Shown here piece by piece: positions 694-31,527 of a DNA stretch of 44,690 nucleotides. Below the pieces are notes generated by a model. That model made no database searches. It was not told where the DNA came from and worked only from the letters and a program-made list of their open reading frames with translations. The position numbers and the translations under genes were made by a program. Source of the DNA: Acidimicrobiia bacterium (GTDB lineage Bacteria > Actinomycetota > Acidimicrobiia > Spongiisociales > JAENVV01); contig JAENVV010000166.1 in the NCBI GenBank assembly GCA_016650365.1, positions 1 through 44,690 of the forward strand. Reading direction: 5' to 3'. The stretch's first letter is position 1; each line of letters opens with the position of its first letter.

Positions 694-1038
694 CTACGTC
701 GCAAAGTTGGGGTAGCCGTGCGGCGTGACGGCCTCTTTGTATGCGCGATCAAACTCAGGGAAGGCGATTCCGTTGAAGTCCACCTCGACAGCCCTGGCGA
801 AATGCAAAAGAATGTACGGGTGCGCTCCCATCTCGTACAAGGTCCCGACATCGAGGCCGACCAGGGCGGCTTGCTCGTCGGTTGACAGGGATCCGCCGTC
901 GGGGACCGGTCGCACAGATTCTTCCGCGGCTCCAACCCACCTGGCCACGAAGCCTTCCCGATCGATGCAGAACTCGTTGAGCGCTTCGGTCGTCCCATCC
1001 ACAAACATCATGAACTTGTTGATGTCGAACCGGCTCAT
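694..1038 (-). CDS. LigA-like alpha subunit of extradiol dioxygenase
   Basis: A 114-residue, mainly helical small subunit resembling protocatechuate 4,5-dioxygenase alpha chain (LigA). The family-typical stretch with LSTDEQAAL around residues 51-59, followed by GxLYEMGAHPYILLHFA-like sequence, is visible. In LigAB enzymes this chain caps the active site of the catalytic LigB subunit. Its ATG overlaps the stop of the LigB-like gene by 4 nt (ATGA), so the two are translationally coupled as expected for subunits of one enzyme. Gene order is B then A, the reverse of the classical ligAB order. The true substrate (protocatechuate, gallate or another catechol) cannot be told. Confidence 0.8.
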   Translation of the reverse strand: MSRFDINKFMMFVDGTTEALNEFCIDREGFVARWVGAAEESVRPVPDGGSLSTDEQAALVGLDVGTLYEMGAHPYILLHFARAVEVDFNGIAFPEFDRAYKEAVTPHGYPNFAT

Positions 1039-1889
1039 GGTTGGTCCTTCATGTCCCAGTAGAAAAACGGGCCGGGCGCAAATCGCGAGGCGGTGCCCTC
1101 TGCGAAGTCCGGGACTCGATTGGCGGCCGCAAGCCCGACGAGCAAGTTAAGAAACTGCAATGTGACATTGCCTGCCGACGCGAGTCGATCGAACTGACAC
1201 CCATCGATGGCAACATCGATATCCCCACTCGCCATCCACGCCACCGCATCGGCGTCGAACTCGGGATCCGGTGAATCCCCACCGAGGAACTGGCGGGGTC
1301 CGCCAATATCGGTCGCGAGGTGCCCGGTGGCAATGATGGCAACGCGTTTGTCGGCTCCATCGGTGGCAATGGTTTCTCGAAGGTATTGCCCGAGAGCGGC
1401 AAACCGCCGCGGCCCGGGCAGCGGTGGCATGTTGGTATTTGTGTGAATCGGAACAATCGGAATGTCGTACTGGGGCCGCAGGAACCACAGCGGGACCGTC
1501 CATCCATGGTCGATCAGCCACTCATTCGAAAAGCCGAAGTCGATGGAGTCGCTGTTGAGGTACTTGGTACCCAACAGTGATGTGGCCATCTCGACGTCCC
1601 CTGGCACCTCCATCGGATCGAGCCCGAACGTCCTGATCTCGTTGGGGTGGGTTCCTTGAAACCGGGACGCCTTGCCGATCATGAACGCCGGCGAGTTGTC
1701 ATAGAAGAACTTCCGGAAGTGGTCTGAACCGACCATGATCAGGACGTCAGGCCGGGCGTCCTCAAGGCGGCCGCGGAAATCCTGAAAGTTCTCATGGGTG
1801 GCGCGCAAGTCGTCATCTATCCCCGCCTGCATGGCTCGCTTGAGGAGCGGATTGTGAGGAACCCCGAGGATCGCGACCAGCTCAGACAT
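1035..1889 (-). CDS. LigB-like catalytic subunit of class III extradiol dioxygenase
   Basis: A 284-residue protein of the LigB superfamily, which uses non-haem Fe(II) and O2 to open dihydroxylated aromatic rings. Visible family landmarks are H12 in GVPHNPLL, D56-H57 in VGSDHF, LIDHGWTVPL near 125-134, and H190 in ATGHLA, the usual catalytic base. In the C-terminal stretch where LigB enzymes normally carry the metal-ligand Glu (an xNExxxEWxNWL-like motif), this protein reads NVTLQFLNLL, placing Gln245 at that position. It lies 3 nt after the upstream C-C hydrolase and overlaps the LigA-like gene by 4 nt. It is probably ring-cleaving, but altered metal binding or another reaction is possible. 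Confidence 0.85.
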   Translation of the reverse strand: MSELVAILGVPHNPLLKRAMQAGIDDDLRATHENFQDFRGRLEDARPDVLIMVGSDHFRKFFYDNSPAFMIGKASRFQGTHPNEIRTFGLDPMEVPGDVEMATSLLGTKYLNSDSIDFGFSNEWLIDHGWTVPLWFLRPQYDIPIVPIHTNTNMPPLPGPRRFAALGQYLRETIATDGADKRVAIIATGHLATDIGGPRQFLGGDSPDPEFDADAVAWMASGDIDVAIDGCQFDRLASAGNVTLQFLNLLVGLAAANRVPDFAEGTASRFAPGPFFYWDMKDQP

Positions 1890-1892
1890 CCA

Positions 1893-2963
1893 TCAGCCTC
1901 TGGCCCCAAGTTGCCTGGCCATCCAGTCGGCGGCATCGTGACGGTACAGATACGCCTTGTTCGACGCCACGTGGTTACCCCCCTTGATGATGTTCAGGGT
2001 GACCGGACCGGTAATACCCTCTGCCATCTCGCGAGCCGCCGCCGGTGGGACGATCCGGTCCTGATCGCCCCCCATGATGTAGGCCGGGCAGGTGACCTGA
2101 TGGATGACCTCGGTGAGATCCAACAGTTCGGCCTTCGGATACGCTTCATCAAGGGTTTCGGAATGAGTTCGAACCCGCCACGTCTCCAGCGACATCGGCG
2201 GAAGGATGTCCCACGAGTCCACCACCCGGAACGGCCCCGACAGGGAAACCAAAGCCTTGATCCGCTTCTCGAAACAGGCAGCCCGAACCACATAGAAGCC
2301 GCCCATGCTGACCCCCCACGCCCCGAGACGGTCGGTATCGAGATCGTCCCTCGCCTCCAGCACATCGATGGCGGCAGCAGCTGCCACCTCGTAGGTCGGG
2401 GTGATCGGGTAATCGAACTCCGACTCGCCTTGTCCTGGCCCATCCATCGTGAACGTGGCCATGCCCCGATCGAGATAGAACTGTTCGTTGGTCGAGAGTT
2501 CTTCCTTGGCCGAATCCAGACCAGGCATCATGAGCACGATCGGTGGGTTCTCGATACCAATTGGCTTACGAAGGTTGCCGACGAGAGGCGGGCCGTCACC
2601 GAACGGAATCTCAAGTCGTTCGACCGGTTCGGCAAAGAGCGGATGTGCTTTGCGATGGGCCCGAATGGCCCCCTGATGGGCGGCCTTCATCTGGACGAGG
2701 TCGTGAGTGAACAAGAACTTCCCGAAGTGATAGCAAACCGCCGCGGTGTTGAAATGGACTGCTGCGCTGCGAGTCCGCCCCTGCGACAGCGCCCGGTCTC
2801 CTTCGGCCTCGTGAATCGCACCACAAGCCGACCAGGCCGAGCACCACTCGTCCCACGAGTCGATCGAACCGGTCACCTCCAGAAAGTCGCCGACCGGCAC
2901 ACCATTCTCAACGTATCGGGGCGCCCAATGTGAAATTGCTGCTTCAATTCTCGGATCTGCCAT
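1893..2963 (-). CDS. Alpha/beta hydrolase, 2,6-dihydroxypseudooxynicotine hydrolase-like (C-C hydrolase)
   Basis: A 356-residue protein: an N-terminal helical region (about 1-115) followed by an alpha/beta-hydrolase core. The nucleophile is S219 in GVSMGG, the acid D300 in GGDQDRIV and the base H331 in GGNHVAS; an acidic pair sits at E154-E155 after GLDSAK. Length, helical N-terminus and residue spacing match the family of 2,6-dihydroxypseudooxynicotine hydrolase, which cleaves a C-C bond beside a hydroxypyridine or hydroxyaryl ring. It precedes the LigB-like gene by 3 nt, which fits a pathway where side-chain or ring fission is coupled. It could also be a plain esterase; the exact substrate is not visible. 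Confidence 0.8.
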   Translation of the reverse strand: MADPRIEAAISHWAPRYVENGVPVGDFLEVTGSIDSWDEWCSAWSACGAIHEAEGDRALSQGRTRSAAVHFNTAAVCYHFGKFLFTHDLVQMKAAHQGAIRAHRKAHPLFAEPVERLEIPFGDGPPLVGNLRKPIGIENPPIVLMMPGLDSAKEELSTNEQFYLDRGMATFTMDGPGQGESEFDYPITPTYEVAAAAAIDVLEARDDLDTDRLGAWGVSMGGFYVVRAACFEKRIKALVSLSGPFRVVDSWDILPPMSLETWRVRTHSETLDEAYPKAELLDLTEVIHQVTCPAYIMGGDQDRIVPPAAAREMAEGITGPVTLNIIKGGNHVASNKAYLYRHDAADWMARQLGARG

Positions 2964-3028: not shown

Positions 3029-4279
3029 CTAGGGCGGTGACTGAGGTCCACCCAGGACCTCGGGTACCACGTCCTGGACACGGTCAATCCCGCGCAGTGC
3101 CGGAAAGAGTCTCCACCAGAGAACGACGATCAGAAGCGTCCCGATCCCGCCGGTAATCACCGCCAGCGAGGCGCCAAGCCACTGCCCGACTAATCCTGAC
3201 TCGACGGCACCCAGCTCATTGGACCCGCCAATGAAAACGCTCTCAGTGGCTAGGACCCGGCCCCGCATATGCTCAGGCGTAGCGAGCGGAGTCACCGAGG
3301 AACGGACCACCACCGAAACAACGTCGGCCGCCCCGAGTACGGCCAGAGCGACCAGGGCGACAACAAAGTTGGTTGTGACACCGAGCACGATCGTGGCAAG
3401 TCCAAATATGAAGACAGCAACGAGCATCTTTGGGCCTGCATGTCGTCTCATCGGGCGGACTGCCAGGATGGTGGCCATGCCGAGCGCGCCTATGGCAATC
3501 GATGCTCGTAGCCACCCGAACTCGACAACTCCCACTCCGAGGCGTTCGTCGGCGATCGCCGGAAGCAAGGCAACCGCTCCTCCAAGCAGCACCGCGAACA
3601 GGTCAAGAGTCATGATCCCGAGCACCGTGGGAGTGCGTCGAATGAACCGCAGTCCTTCAAAGGCGTCCCGGATGGCAGCTCGGGGCGTCGTTGCCTGGCT
3701 CATCTTCATCGTTGTCGGCTTCGGCACGAAGAACAGGGCGCCCATGGACGCCACGTAAAAGATGGCCGCCGCGAGGTACGGTAGGGCCGAGTTCCGCTCG
3801 TACAGAACCGCGGCGGCCACAGGACCAACAATCGTTGCAACCTGGAACGACCCGGACCGGATGGCGACGACCCTGCTTACAACACTCGGCGGCGATAGGT
3901 CAAAGGGCAGCGCCCAACCAGACGGAGCCACCAGCGCCCGACCGGCTCCAAAAAGACCCATGAGAACAAAAGCAGGGGCCACGCTGGTCGGCTCGGACAA
4001 GGAGTACCTGACCAGACCGAGCGACACCAGCATCTGCGCAATCAGTCCAAACGCATACACCTTGCGTCGATCAAAACGATCGGACAGGAACCCTGCCGCC
4101 GGCGACAAGAAGAAGACCGGAACGAACTGCACCAGACCAAGGAGTCCGAGGTCGAGTTCTCGCCCGGTGATCTGATAGATCTGTAGACCGACGATCGCCA
4201 CAAGCGCGGCCTGTCCAACTCGTGACAGGAATATGGCACCGATCAGGACCTTTACCCCTTTGGGGACCCGGTCGGTCAC
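3029..4279 (-). CDS. MFS transporter (MFS_3, enterobactin exporter-like)
   Basis: A 416-residue integral membrane protein with about 12 hydrophobic segments and a motif A-like loop (AGFLSDRFDRRK, residues 62-73) after the second helix, typical of the major facilitator superfamily. The pattern of the N-terminal half (LGLLGLVQFVP, then FFLSPAAG) resembles the MFS_3 / EntS group of proton-driven exporters. Its start overlaps the upstream hydrolase stop by 4 nt, so it belongs to the catabolic operon. It may export an intermediate or inhibitor, or import the substrate. Family assignment is firm, direction and substrate are not. Confidence 0.85.
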   Translation of the reverse strand: MTDRVPKGVKVLIGAIFLSRVGQAALVAIVGLQIYQITGRELDLGLLGLVQFVPVFFLSPAAGFLSDRFDRRKVYAFGLIAQMLVSLGLVRYSLSEPTSVAPAFVLMGLFGAGRALVAPSGWALPFDLSPPSVVSRVVAIRSGSFQVATIVGPVAAAVLYERNSALPYLAAAIFYVASMGALFFVPKPTTMKMSQATTPRAAIRDAFEGLRFIRRTPTVLGIMTLDLFAVLLGGAVALLPAIADERLGVGVVEFGWLRASIAIGALGMATILAVRPMRRHAGPKMLVAVFIFGLATIVLGVTTNFVVALVALAVLGAADVVSVVVRSSVTPLATPEHMRGRVLATESVFIGGSNELGAVESGLVGQWLGASLAVITGGIGTLLIVVLWWRLFPALRGIDRVQDVVPEVLGGPQSPP

Positions 4280-5175
4280 TTCATGTATCGATCAAGGTAG
4301 GCGATGACCCCGGCCACAGCCTGGCGCTGAACGTCATTGACCTCGTATTCGCCGTCGGCTCCGCGCATCGGGTACACGTAACCGTGCAGGTCATGATCCC
4401 ACGACACCCATTCACAGTCTTTGCCTGCTTCGGCCAGCATGTCGTAGGTAGTCCTGAATATGCCTTGCAGGTGGTCGGTTTCGCGTCCCATCACGAGGAT
4501 TGGGGTTTGAATGCCGGACACCCTGGCGCGAGCGATATCCATGTCGATCCGGCCTCGTACCTTCTCGACCTCCGCCATTTGCATGTCTTCGATGTTGCGC
4601 ATGTGCGTTTCTTCATTCATGGGGGCCGTGTGGTCCGGATTCAGAGCGAGGTATTCATGTGAGGCGGGTTCGCTGGCCACGCCGACGAGCGCCCCGTGAT
4701 ACTCCGAGCAAATCTTCATGACCATCTCACCGCCGTGACTCATGCCAATCAACCCGACGCCGGAAAACCGCGGATCTGCGTTGAAGTACTCGATGATGGC
4801 GATCTCGTCCTCATACTCGAGGGGCGACCGGTTGAACATTTCACGACCCTGTCGAGCGTCCCTGACCAACGGGCCACCATTGTGGTACCCGAGTTCGACT
4901 TCGGTGCGATAGCGAATCCAGGCACAGGCGTACCCGGCCTCGACGAGACGATCCATGGTCCAACCGCGATTCCGCATCGCATCACGGATCCAGGCCATGC
5001 CTTCGCCACCATTCCCAGATGCCAACAGGATGAGAGGAAACGGCCCCGGTCCATCGGGCGTCCGTAATCCAACCGGGGCGTAGAGACCATCCCACGTTTC
5101 GACGAACGTCAACTCGACCTCCCCATGGTCGGGAGTCATCTCGGTAATTCGCACCGCTTCAGGGTCGATACCCAT
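4276..5175 (-). CDS. Dienelactone hydrolase-type alpha/beta hydrolase
   Basis: A 299-residue cytoplasmic alpha/beta hydrolase. The nucleophile elbow is GMSHGG with S146, the likely acid is D234 in GRETDHLQ and the base H264 in DLHGYVYP. The latter resembles the dienelactone hydrolase / prolyl oligopeptidase style. It probably hydrolyses an ester, lactone or similar pathway intermediate. The start is well supported by AAGGAG about 7 nt before the ATG. It begins 11 nt after the CMD selenoprotein candidate ends and overlaps the MFS gene by 4 nt, placing it second in the minus-strand operon. Whether it acts on a lactone or on a peptide-like bond cannot be told. Confidence 0.75.
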   Translation of the reverse strand: MGIDPEAVRITEMTPDHGEVELTFVETWDGLYAPVGLRTPDGPGPFPLILLASGNGGEGMAWIRDAMRNRGWTMDRLVEAGYACAWIRYRTEVELGYHNGGPLVRDARQGREMFNRSPLEYEDEIAIIEYFNADPRFSGVGLIGMSHGGEMVMKICSEYHGALVGVASEPASHEYLALNPDHTAPMNEETHMRNIEDMQMAEVEKVRGRIDMDIARARVSGIQTPILVMGRETDHLQGIFRTTYDMLAEAGKDCEWVSWDHDLHGYVYPMRGADGEYEVNDVQRQAVAGVIAYLDRYMK

Positions 5176-5186
5176 TTTCCTGCTCC

Positions 5187-5759
5187 TTATTCGCTGTCTG
5201 CGGCCGCCAAACCTACCTGAGTGTCACCCAACACCTCACGATGTCCAATCCCCAACGTTTTGATCCATCGCTGCTGACCGCTCGTCAAGGCGATGAAGAA
5301 GCCCAGCTCGACAAGTTCGGGCTCGGTGAAGTAAGCGTGTAGCTGCGCCCACAGATCGTCATCGGCGATGCTGGAGTCCCAGAGGATGGCGCTCGTGTAG
5401 CGGAGGGCCGCCTTCTGGCGATCATCGAATCGATCCGAATCCTCAAACCGAAGCAATTCGTCATAATCGGATTCGGTAAGTCCTTGCCGTCCACCCTGGA
5501 CGGACCGTTGGACCCCTCAGTAGTCACATTCAATCGATTGCGATACGTACACCCGGCACAGTTCCTTGACCGAATGGTCGAGCACTCCCTCAATGAACGT
5601 TTCCCGCCAGGCGTTCGTAAATGTGTGGAGCACCGCCGGAACGTGCGACCGGATCGACTGGCTTTCCGGGCGAGGCGTCCCATTCCATCGGGCATGCTCA
5701 AGTAGGTCACGGTCATCCGGGGGCAGCGAATCTGGCGGCGGGTAGCTGATGTTTGGCAT
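5187..5759 (-). CDS. CMD/AhpD-like protein with in-frame TGA: candidate selenoprotein (CxxU)
   Basis: Read through one in-frame TGA (5519-5517), this frame gives a complete 190-residue carboxymuconolactone-decarboxylase/AhpD-family protein. The start is ATG at 5759 with a strong AAGGAGG five nt upstream. The N-terminal half ends in E66-x11-C78-D-Y-[TGA81]-G-V-Q-R, so the TGA sits exactly at the second Cys of the family CxxC redox motif. Downstream the same frame continues with family-typical sequence (RQKAALRY, then AYFTEPELVELGFFIALTSGQQRW). A bSECIS-like hairpin follows the TGA. Selenocysteine variants are known in AhpD-like proteins. TGA is an ordinary stop elsewhere here. The likely role is a thiol/selenol peroxidase or a lyase. 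The alternatives are a pseudogene or a single-base error. Confidence 0.75.
5478..5515 (-). promoter_or_regulatory. bSECIS-like stem-loop downstream of in-frame TGA
   Basis: In the mRNA, 13 nt after the UGA a perfect 6-bp stem forms: CCGUCC (5503-5498) with GGACGG (5492-5487), closing the loop AGGGU. If A and U also pair, the loop is GGG. A lower stem GGGUCC/GGACUU (5515-5510 with 5483-5478, two G-U pairs) is separated from it by an internal loop. The loop G lies about 20 nt after the UGA and is the first or second loop base. This fits the published bacterial SECIS rule, with a G among the first two loop bases at 16-37 nt from the UGA. The pairing was read by hand; no folding energy was computed. 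Confidence 0.65.
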
Positions 5760-5966
5760 GATGGCCTCCTTAGCCATGAGACTAACCAGCCAGATACGCG
5801 AAGATCCGCTCGCCGGGCGAACACCGGGGAACCGGGCATTTCGGATCAAGCCAACGTAGGATCGAAACCAACCGAGGAGGGTCGCATCCGGGTCGACAAC
5901 GCCAAGCTCAGAGAAAACGTAGCGGATACCGCTCGCCTCCTCGAAGACGATCCGAGCGCCGGACAC

Positions 5967-6455
5967 GTGCGGCCATTGGTCAAGACGACGCTCGTCCACA
6001 ACGTTCACGCACGTTCCGATTTCATCCAATACGACAAAGAGTTCTCCTTCGAATGCGACGAATCCGATGGGCGAGCCGGCACCAGCCGGGCTCCGAGTCC
6101 GCTGCGCTACTTCCTCTCCTCGATCGCCTTCTGCCAGCAAGTGTGGTTCGCCAAGGGAGCCGCACTGGCCGATGTGGAGATCGAGGAGCTGGAGATCGAC
6201 GTCCACACGTACATGGACATGCGCGGGGAGCACAAGGTCGGCGAGGTTCCTCCCAACCCACAGTGGATCATCATCGAAGCCAACGTTACGAGTCCGTCGG
6301 CAACGGAGGCGGTGCTGGCTATGGCCGACGAGGCGAATGCCCGTTGCCCGGTCACCAATCTGGTCGCCAAAGCGGTGCCTATCTATGAACAGATCCGTCT
6401 CAATGGCGTCGTGATCCGTGACACGGTTCCCACCGGTCTGGAGGAACAACCGTGA
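5967..6455 (+). CDS. OsmC-family protein (start uncertain)
   Basis: An OsmC/Ohr-fold protein, 162 residues from the GTG at 5967. Two Cys lie in family-typical places, C56 (SSIAFCQQVW) and C127 (ANARCPVTNL). These proteins reduce organic hydroperoxides or act on thiol-linked substrates. The frame stays open upstream with convincing sequence (RVDNAKLRENVADTARLLEDDPSAGH) but has no ATG, GTG or TTG before 5967. A strong GAGGAGG at 5874-5880 sits five nt before an ATC codon (5886), and an ATT lies at 5838. The gene may therefore begin at a rare start, or the region may hold a sequence error. It is divergent from the CMD gene and overlaps the CoA-transferase by 4 nt. Confidence 0.75.
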   Translation: MRPLVKTTLVHNVHARSDFIQYDKEFSFECDESDGRAGTSRAPSPLRYFLSSIAFCQQVWFAKGAALADVEIEELEIDVHTYMDMRGEHKVGEVPPNPQWIIIEANVTSPSATEAVLAMADEANARCPVTNLVAKAVPIYEQIRLNGVVIRDTVPTGLEEQP

Positions 6456-26120: not shown

Positions 26121-26540
26121 ATGAGCTCAACAACCAGTCGGCCAATCGGCGGCGGACGCACCCAGATCACCGACGGTAAAACCGGAACGATCCTCCACAC
26201 AGACGTTTCTCCCGAATTCGGGGGTGGTGGAAGTACGTTTTCGTCAACCGATCTGATCGGGGCCGGCCTCGGATCATGCATCAGCTCTTCGCTTGAGCCC
26301 CTGGCTGTCCGACATGGCATCCCCTTGGATGCCATCTCTATCACCGTCCACAAGGAGCTCGGCGTCGACCCGAAACGAATCGTCCGGCTGGCAGTAGATA
26401 TCGAAGTGGCCACGACAAACGATCCAAAAATTGCGAAGCTGTTCGAGCGAGCCGCCCATTCATGTACGGTTCACCGCTCACTCCATCCCGATATCGAATC
26501 GCCGATACAGGTTCTGTTCATCGATCGACCGGCCAACTGA
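26121..26540 (+). CDS. OsmC-family protein
   Basis: A 139-residue OsmC/YhfA-like protein. The two family cysteines are C53 in LGSCISSSL and C115 in AAHSCTVHRSL, the latter in the usual xxCPVxxxL-like position. Proteins of this fold reduce organic hydroperoxides or disulfides in the cytoplasm; the YhfA branch has unknown function. It is 30 nt after E1-beta and 6 nt before the zinc metallopeptidase gene, so it could be the last gene of the catabolic operon or the first of the next one. It is a second OsmC member in the window, only distantly similar to the one at 5967. Confidence 0.85.
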   Translation: MSSTTSRPIGGGRTQITDGKTGTILHTDVSPEFGGGGSTFSSTDLIGAGLGSCISSSLEPLAVRHGIPLDAISITVHKELGVDPKRIVRLAVDIEVATTNDPKIAKLFERAAHSCTVHRSLHPDIESPIQVLFIDRPAN

Positions 26541-29680: not shown

Positions 29681-30628
29681 CTATCGAACGAGAATTCGAT
29701 CTTCGACGCGACGGACGATTTCGTCAACAGCCTCCCAATTGAGCATGTGGCCACAGCCATCGAGCCAGACCAGTTCACCATGGAGGAGGTTGGCCGCGAT
29801 CAGGCGCGCCTGGACGGGCGGGGTCGTTCGATCCTCGCTCCCGGTGATGACCGAAACCGGTAACTCGATCTCCGCGATCCGAGGTGAAAGGTCTTCGTCA
29901 ACCATCATGTCGACCGCTGGAAATATCTGGGCATAGTCGGCGCTGCCCAGTTCAGCCTGAAGAGCCTCGACCAGGGACGGGGAAGCAGTTCCGAACGCAT
30001 CGGTGAGCGCCACCCGTCCGTAAATGCGATTCGAAAGCACCGTGGCTGCCAGCGGATACTTCATGACCCTGGTCCGTGCTTTACCCAGAGGATCACGCCC
30101 CAGGGCACCGTACGTTGGCGACACCAGGACCGCGCCGCGCAGATGGCCCCGGGCGTGGTCCGCATGATCGATCAGGTATTGAAGTGCCAGAAACGAACCC
30201 ATCGAGTGACCGACCAGTACCCCGTTGGAAACTTCGAAGTGGTCGATCAAGGCCCGATAATCGGCTGCCATCGGGGATGAACCAATACCATCGGTCCCGA
30301 TGGTCGATTGGCCGTGGCCCCGCTGGTCGAACGTGATGACCCGGTGTCCGGTCGCCACGAGTCGTTCGGCAACCACGTTCCAGCTCATCGATGAAAGGGC
30401 GTAATCGTGTGCCAAAACAACGGTGGGACCGGTGCCCGCTTCAAAGGTGCGTAGTCGGGTGCCGTCGACCCGCTCCAGCCACCCGACCTCACCGGGTACC
30501 TGGTGGGACAGTTCTTCAGGCTGGTATGGATCAGGCTTCTTCTCGAGGGTGCGGGCCATGGACGTAACCGCCAAATGAGCTGCCCCGGCTGCGGCGGCAG
30601 CTCCCAAAATAATACGTGAGATCTTCAT
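29681..30628 (-). CDS. Alpha/beta hydrolase with N-terminal membrane anchor
   Basis: A 315-residue alpha/beta hydrolase. The start MKISRIILG at 30628 (GAGG upstream) gives a short hydrophobic Ala-rich segment (about 5-22) that can act as a signal or anchor. The core has the nucleophile Ser in VLVGHSMGS, the acid in VITGSEDRTTP and the His in DGCGHMLNWE, with HDYALSS as oxyanion-hole segment. It resembles general esterase/lipase or haloperoxidase-type hydrolases. It is divergent from the maleylpyruvate-isomerase-like gene with about 80-110 nt between. The substrate is unknown. Confidence 0.8.
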   Translation of the reverse strand: MKISRIILGAAAAAGAAHLAVTSMARTLEKKPDPYQPEELSHQVPGEVGWLERVDGTRLRTFEAGTGPTVVLAHDYALSSMSWNVVAERLVATGHRVITFDQRGHGQSTIGTDGIGSSPMAADYRALIDHFEVSNGVLVGHSMGSFLALQYLIDHADHARGHLRGAVLVSPTYGALGRDPLGKARTRVMKYPLAATVLSNRIYGRVALTDAFGTASPSLVEALQAELGSADYAQIFPAVDMMVDEDLSPRIAEIELPVSVITGSEDRTTPPVQARLIAANLLHGELVWLDGCGHMLNWEAVDEIVRRVEDRILVR

Positions 30629-30738
30629 ACCTGCATCCTCGCGCATTTCCCGGTCGATATCTGCAACCGGCAGTGCACTTTCCCTCAAGTTTCTATTGCT
30701 GGAGTCGAATAGTGAGTAACGGAGAACCAAGAGGACCT

Positions 30739-31527
30739 GTGAATCGGACGCCCGATCTGCCCGCCGAGGATGCACGTGTTGCAGTGCTCGCCCTTCAGCG
30801 CGCCAATCAGCACCTTCTTGATCAACTCGAGGGCCTAACGCACGAGTCGGTGCAAGCCCCTTCGCTACTCCCCAACTGGTCACGCGCCAACCTCATCACT
30901 CACCTGGCATACGTTGGCCGGGCCTTGGTGCGGATGACCGACGAAGCACTCGCCGAAGGTGCAACATCCACGTACTTGCGTGGTCCGGAGGAACGGGCCG
31001 AGTCGATCAAACGTGGCAACCATATGCCAACCGACCTCTTGCGAAAGGAGCTGATGGTCGCCGTTGAAGAACTCGACCGCATGTGGTCCGGTTTAAGCGA
31101 ATTCGACTGGGAGACTCCCTTCATTCTCAATGGAACCCACGACGTCCGGCTGACCCGCCTGCTCATGTTGCGCTGGATGGAAGTTGAGGTACACACCTCC
31201 GACTTTGGTTTCGATGGCCCTGGTTTCGACGTGTCCGAATTGTTCATCGCCGCGGCTCTCCCACTTCGGATTGCCTGGCTCGTACAACACCACCGCAGCC
31301 GTGAGGACGCCGACCACAGCGTTCGGGGGGTCTGGCACTTGCGGGCGACGACATCGCACGAAGCATGGACGATCAAGACCGCCAACGCCACCACCGAGTG
31401 CGTGATCGAAGGTCCAGATCATGACCTACTGGGTTTCATCCTCGGCCGGGTACCCGTTGGCGACTTGGTCACAAGCGGGAACGTCGGGTTGGCCCACCGG
31501 TTTAAGCTGGCCTTCCCCGGCCCGTAG
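30739..31527 (+). CDS. Maleylpyruvate isomerase-family (DinB-fold) protein
   Basis: A 262-residue protein with an N-terminal DinB/MDMPI four-helix domain containing SLLPNWSRANLITHLAYVGRAL and a later H in MEVEVHTSDFG, the usual metal-binding pattern of mycothiol-dependent maleylpyruvate isomerases. A C-terminal MDMPI_C-like domain follows (WHLRATTSHEAW onward). Actinobacterial members use mycothiol as cofactor; many have unknown substrates. GTG at 30739 with AGAGG upstream is chosen; GTG at 30712 with GGAG upstream is also possible and adds nine residues. Confidence 0.8.
   Translation: MNRTPDLPAEDARVAVLALQRANQHLLDQLEGLTHESVQAPSLLPNWSRANLITHLAYVGRALVRMTDEALAEGATSTYLRGPEERAESIKRGNHMPTDLLRKELMVAVEELDRMWSGLSEFDWETPFILNGTHDVRLTRLLMLRWMEVEVHTSDFGFDGPGFDVSELFIAAALPLRIAWLVQHHRSREDADHSVRGVWHLRATTSHEAWTIKTANATTECVIEGPDHDLLGFILGRVPVGDLVTSGNVGLAHRFKLAFPGP

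Follow-up and report, generated by a model that had tools for sequence, protein, structure and literature searches.

A 190-residue frame on the reverse strand of an Acidimicrobiia contig (5187-5759) raises the question of whether the in-frame TGA at codon 81, its sole interruption, ends a short protein or encodes selenocysteine (Sec). Coordinates refer to the window, the whole stretch of 44,690 nucleotides that was analysed. As far as sequence comparison can tell, it is very nearly certain that the gene is a real selenoprotein gene, whose product would be a full-length CMD/AhpD-family thiol oxidoreductase with Sec81. The elements of the gene, in its own 5' to 3' direction, are as follows.

5765..5771, reverse strand: Shine-Dalgarno AAGGAGG, 5 nt 5' of the ATG, read directly
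5187..5759, reverse strand: putative CMD/AhpD-family selenoprotein gene, 190 residues with the TGA taken as Sec
5759-5757, reverse strand: start ATG
5562..5564, reverse strand: Glu66 codon, in the family E-x11-C spacing
5526..5528, reverse strand: Cys78 codon, partner of Sec81 in CxxU
5517..5519, reverse strand: TGA codon 81, taken as selenocysteine
5487..5503, reverse strand: predicted bSECIS hairpin, in which 5503-5498 pairs with 5492-5487 around the loop 5497-5493 (AGGGU)
5189-5187, reverse strand: stop TAA

Direct reading confirmed the elements proposed in the earlier note: the ATG with a strong ribosome-binding site at 5759, the stop at 5187, the lone TGA at codon 81, the motif C78-D-Y-U81 (C78 at 5528-5526), and the E-x11-C spacing from E66 (5564-5562) that completes the pattern E-x11-C-x2-U. 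Upstream of the ATG the frame stays open as far as a TTG at 6449, but a longer protein was rejected, as this region is antisense to an OsmC gene and has no Pfam match; in the alignment, orthologues begin at the same Met as the ATG at 5759. An overlapping frame at 5839-5285 was also considered as an alternative gene and set aside, likewise having no Pfam match.

With codon 81 read as U, the protein matches the Pfam CMD domain (PF02627) at 33.7 bits against a gathering cut-off of 23, and the match spans residues 41-122, across U81, in agreement with the proposal that family-typical sequence continues past the TGA. The E-x11-C-x2-C redox site of the CMD/AhpD-like family is present as E66, C78 and Sec81, all invariant in an alignment in which Sec was written as C. 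An AlphaFold2 model (pLDDT 92.5) shows an all-helical AhpD-like fold; among solved structures the closest in both sequence and fold are those of peroxidase-related AhpD-core proteins, of PA0269 and of the debrominase Bmp8. PA0269 and the peroxidase-related proteins (2ijc, 2o4d, 7xw1, 2prr) are Cys enzymes with 14-21% identity in the fold alignment. Bmp8 (6ohi, 6ohj) has the same fold (TM 0.68-0.72) and a profile match at E 8e-12, but differs in being a Cys enzyme of bromopyrrole biosynthesis, so that the likeness lies in sequence and fold only. In the profile search the selenoprotein reached no NCBIfam model at its cut-off, and the subfamily thus lacks a curated name there. The nearest curated model, NF053654 YciW-related (seleno)protein (E 1e-10), was rejected at 41.7 bits, far below its cut-off of 310, as was TIGR01926 peroxidase-related enzyme (25 bits against 81.8). 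The NF053654 relatives that were seen carry Arg four residues past the Sec site, as the present protein does.

A thiol/selenol redox enzyme is a safe inference for the gene product. By analogy with the family, the redox centre would be the Cys78-x-x-Sec81 pair with Glu66 nearby, in which Sec81 may act as the attacking selenolate, Cys78 would resolve it via a selenenyl-sulfide, and re-reduction of the centre would fall to a cellular thiol system. The likeliest substrates would be peroxides or other electrophilic oxidised compounds, an assignment on which our confidence is evenly balanced. The following genes lie around the selenoprotein gene.

694..1038, reverse strand: candidate LigA-like subunit (Pfam match weak and below cut-off)
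1035..1889, reverse strand: LigB-type class III extradiol ring-cleavage dioxygenase
1893..2963, reverse strand: FrsA-like hydrolase
3029..4279, reverse strand: MFS transporter, overlapping the next gene by 4 nt
4276..5175, reverse strand: alpha/beta hydrolase-like gene, Pfam match below cut-off, kept in the genus
5967..6455, forward strand: divergent OsmC-like gene, Cys form, fitting NCBIfam NF041052, OsmC-related (seleno)protein

The alpha/beta hydrolase-like gene starts 11 nt past the selenoprotein stop, and the two are probably co-transcribed. The catabolic setting described earlier holds, in that LigB ring-cleavage and hydrolase genes do adjoin the selenoprotein gene. The downstream gene order holds within the genus, apart from some differences, but is not shared outside it, where no constant operon partner was found. 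The 108 neighbouring proteins at 30 other loci belong most often to catabolic or transport families, led by Amidohydro_2, TctC and 2-hydroxyacid dehydrogenases, in counts that are low, raw and without a background.

Such surroundings, namely the hydrolases, the LigB dioxygenase and a CoA-transferase in the window and the leading families elsewhere, speak for a different function of the same selenoprotein, in which it would serve a specific catabolic step, such as the reduction or dehalogenation of ring-cleavage intermediates, and not peroxide defence. The site of M. tuberculosis AhpD, which we take to include two His (one in C-x-H-C and one at the fourth residue past the second Cys), points the same way: Tyr80 and Arg85 stand at these presumed positions, both canonical His are missing, and peroxidase activity may not follow. 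A catabolic step also gains from the match of Bmp8 by sequence and fold, since Bmp8 has been described as a dehalogenating homologue of decarboxylases (PMC7918430). However, PA0269 and the peroxidase-related proteins match better than Bmp8, the neighbours vary from locus to locus, no halogen-related gene was recognised nearby, and the divergent OsmC gene points to peroxide chemistry; we consider the catabolic role unlikely. The broader proposal that the widespread, unnamed Sec-dependent CMD subfamily is a dedicated enzyme of soil and groundwater catabolic clusters appears more doubtful still; if it were true, selenium supply would limit the breakdown of such compounds.

A second OsmC-like gene lies in the window at 26121-26540, and in two other loci (L096 and L097) an OsmC homologue lies just 3' of the Cys paralogue of the CMD gene. 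At 30616-31527 the window also encodes a protein whose N-terminal domain is of the mycothiol maleylpyruvate isomerase type, so the host may have chemistry linked to mycothiol.

The Sec reading itself, whichever substrate is involved, depends on machinery that the earlier note proposed to look for in the full genome. The host genome, 97.8% complete at 3.49 Mb in 341 contigs, holds tRNA-Sec with a UCA anticodon, SelA, SelB and SelD, all above curated cut-offs, with selA adjoining selB on one contig. The host selD (contig C5) carries its own Sec-type TGA within GAG-U-ACK, and is thus itself a selenoprotein gene. UGA codon 81 would be decoded as Sec by SelB and tRNA-Sec, directed by the predicted hairpin inside the coding sequence.

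The proposed 6-bp stem with a G-rich loop is present: the UGA is followed by 13 nt, CCGUCC, the 5-nt loop AGGGU and GGACGG, which form a perfect stem. Its loop Gs lie about 21-23 nt 3' of the UGA, in keeping with a bacterial SECIS, where a G in a small apical loop is expected close behind the UGA. The energy of the lone hairpin was no better than that of shuffled sequence (z = -0.41, not significant), so the case had to rest on comparison. With the six pairs scored in a fixed register, all six are formed in 52 of 54 distinct TGA sequences and in none of 25 sequences without TGA; among all 26 rows scored without TGA, the best forms four. The two TGA exceptions (L045 and L048) have the stem in a shifted register, as read by eye. 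The 25 remain from 26 non-TGA rows (24 TGC/TGT, one TTC in a degenerate tandem CMD, and one, L100) after exclusion of L100, a TGA locus aligned out of frame. Across 20 distinct sequences, each of the 120 hairpin cells is paired, and 16 double-changed cells over four of the six pairs are compensatory, a result equalled by 0 of 500 shuffles; in slid hairpin structures, pairing drops to 22-48%. Some of the compensatory changes also replace an amino acid (Arg to Gln), an argument for selection on the RNA itself. The excluded relative (L100:6-526) is TGA-bearing, with a one-base frame shift just 5' of CxxU that is either an assembly error or decay.

Homologues carry the same TGA widely. Relatives with 60-96% identity from many phyla share it, and the contig search yielded 53 loci, most with TGA at codon 81, whose titles name Acidimicrobiia, Chloroflexi, Ktedonobacterales, Rokuibacteriota, Binatia, Deltaproteobacteria, Burkholderiales, Armatimonadota and ANGP1. 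Loci at 89-96% identity with the same gene order are labelled Acidimicrobiia, and in the set of 296 class genomes the close relatives have TGA at the identical codon. All 21 genomes of the class in which a CMD match bears the TGA have SelA above cut-off (they are related and do not count as 21 independent events), compared with 199 of all 296. Beyond the nearest relatives, 27 of 37 Sec-bearing genomes have SelA above cut-off; the other ten, distant assemblies that show no full SelA (draft genomes being incomplete), comprise seven in which tRNA-Sec scores above the Rfam cut-off (scores near 50 bits being weak, as five control genomes pass too), two with fragments of SelA, at 203.7 and 81.8 bits, and one with neither. 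A search for plasmid copies gave only distant CMD proteins with less than 30% identity. The subfamily is spread through soil and groundwater bacteria, with near-uniform Sec use, and often lies near catabolic genes.

These comparisons bear on the objection that the TGA is either a genuine stop or an error of sequencing, in a pseudogene or a gene for a truncated 80-residue protein. Standard gene finding does end the frame at the TGA. Against this, over 40 independent assemblies have TGA at the same codon, which rules out a read error, and pairs with unsaturated dS give a dN/dS of about 0.02-0.11 5' of the TGA and 0.04-0.11 3' of it, distant pairs with saturated dS being left out. By this measure of coding sequence, purifying selection is equally strong on either side of the TGA, and the frame decay named earlier as a possible refutation is not seen in close or distant relatives. 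With a covarying hairpin and Sec machinery in the genome as well, a stop or an error is very improbable.

Reading of UGA as Trp or another ordinary residue through a changed code or suppressor tRNA, under which the frame would also be open, is the least probable of all, given that TGA is the ordinary stop of many genes in the window and the code as a whole is thus unchanged, that homologues have Cys and not Trp at the site, that only 2 of 11 CMD matches in the host genome contain TGA, and that a tRNA-Sec with anticodon UCA is present. Among other TGA-split frames in the window, 0 of 6 tested give one Pfam domain across the TGA, and one such pair (MscL and a weak archease match) apparently represents two separate genes. 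Incorporation of selenocysteine at codon 81, as first suggested, is thus the reading that machinery, Cys homologues, covariation and selection past the TGA together support.

The gene was proposed as a probable new selenoprotein; it is new as a gene, while its kind is known, and the accompanying statement that AhpD-like selenoproteins exist agrees with the literature. A CMD-domain CxxU selenoprotein (PF02627) from the Sargasso Sea was reported in 2005 (PMC1088965), and a CMD domain-containing selenoprotein is listed again in PMC9312934 and in a 2026 list (PMC13188914). The Sargasso Sea protein shares with the present one the Pfam family, the CxxU motif and a bacterial SECIS after the UGA, whereas the present host lineage is of terrestrial or freshwater type; the two are likened by description, not by subfamily-level identity. 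AhpD-like 2 selenoproteins (pfam02627, CxxU) were described in the 2008 GOS survey and share domain and motif with the present gene, again by description; they were more abundant in nonmarine samples, which fits the present subfamily (PMC2398784). What appears new is a subfamily without a curated NCBIfam name, set beside the published CMD selenoproteins by description only. Literature on selenocysteine in Acidimicrobiia and selenoproteins in Rokubacteria yielded incidental mentions only. Standard annotation cuts genes of this sort short at residue 80 or labels them pseudogenes, so that many genomes from soil, groundwater and sediment are likely to hold an intact redox enzyme that goes unrecognised.

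Cys-containing copies offer a natural comparison. Cys (TGC/TGT) occupies the Sec site in 24 of the 25 non-TGA homologues, as the alignment suggested earlier for position 81 now shows. The host itself has a Cys paralogue on contig C41 with 64% identity to the selenoprotein, which lacks three codons exactly in the hairpin region and has no hairpin. In the tree, an Acidimicrobiia clade of Cys copies (100/99) groups with good support (95/96) with the Sec rows of Acidimicrobiia, and both adjoin an all-Sec Ktedonobacterales branch. The simplest reading of these sequences would be duplication followed by replacement of Sec by Cys, a direction that depends on the root, which is not fixed in this tree. 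One lineage appears to provide a natural experiment, a related Cys copy without the SECIS hairpin, and as both copies are kept in one genome, the advantage of Sec over Cys could be tested directly.

Additional CMD genes were observed in the host and its relatives. A second Sec-CMD gene on host contig C79 (L104:2592-3673) has TGA at the same motif position (CNYU) and looks nearer to NF053654; it is followed by a tandem degenerate CMD copy in which CxxC is DPYF, and the pair recurs in three relatives (L108, L109 and L039). A further close relative (L099, JAUVPA010000009.1), partial at a contig end, has 69% identity over 118 residues and Cys at the Sec site, in a genome with a strong tRNA-Sec match (79.8 bits), and may represent a second, independent exchange between Sec and Cys.
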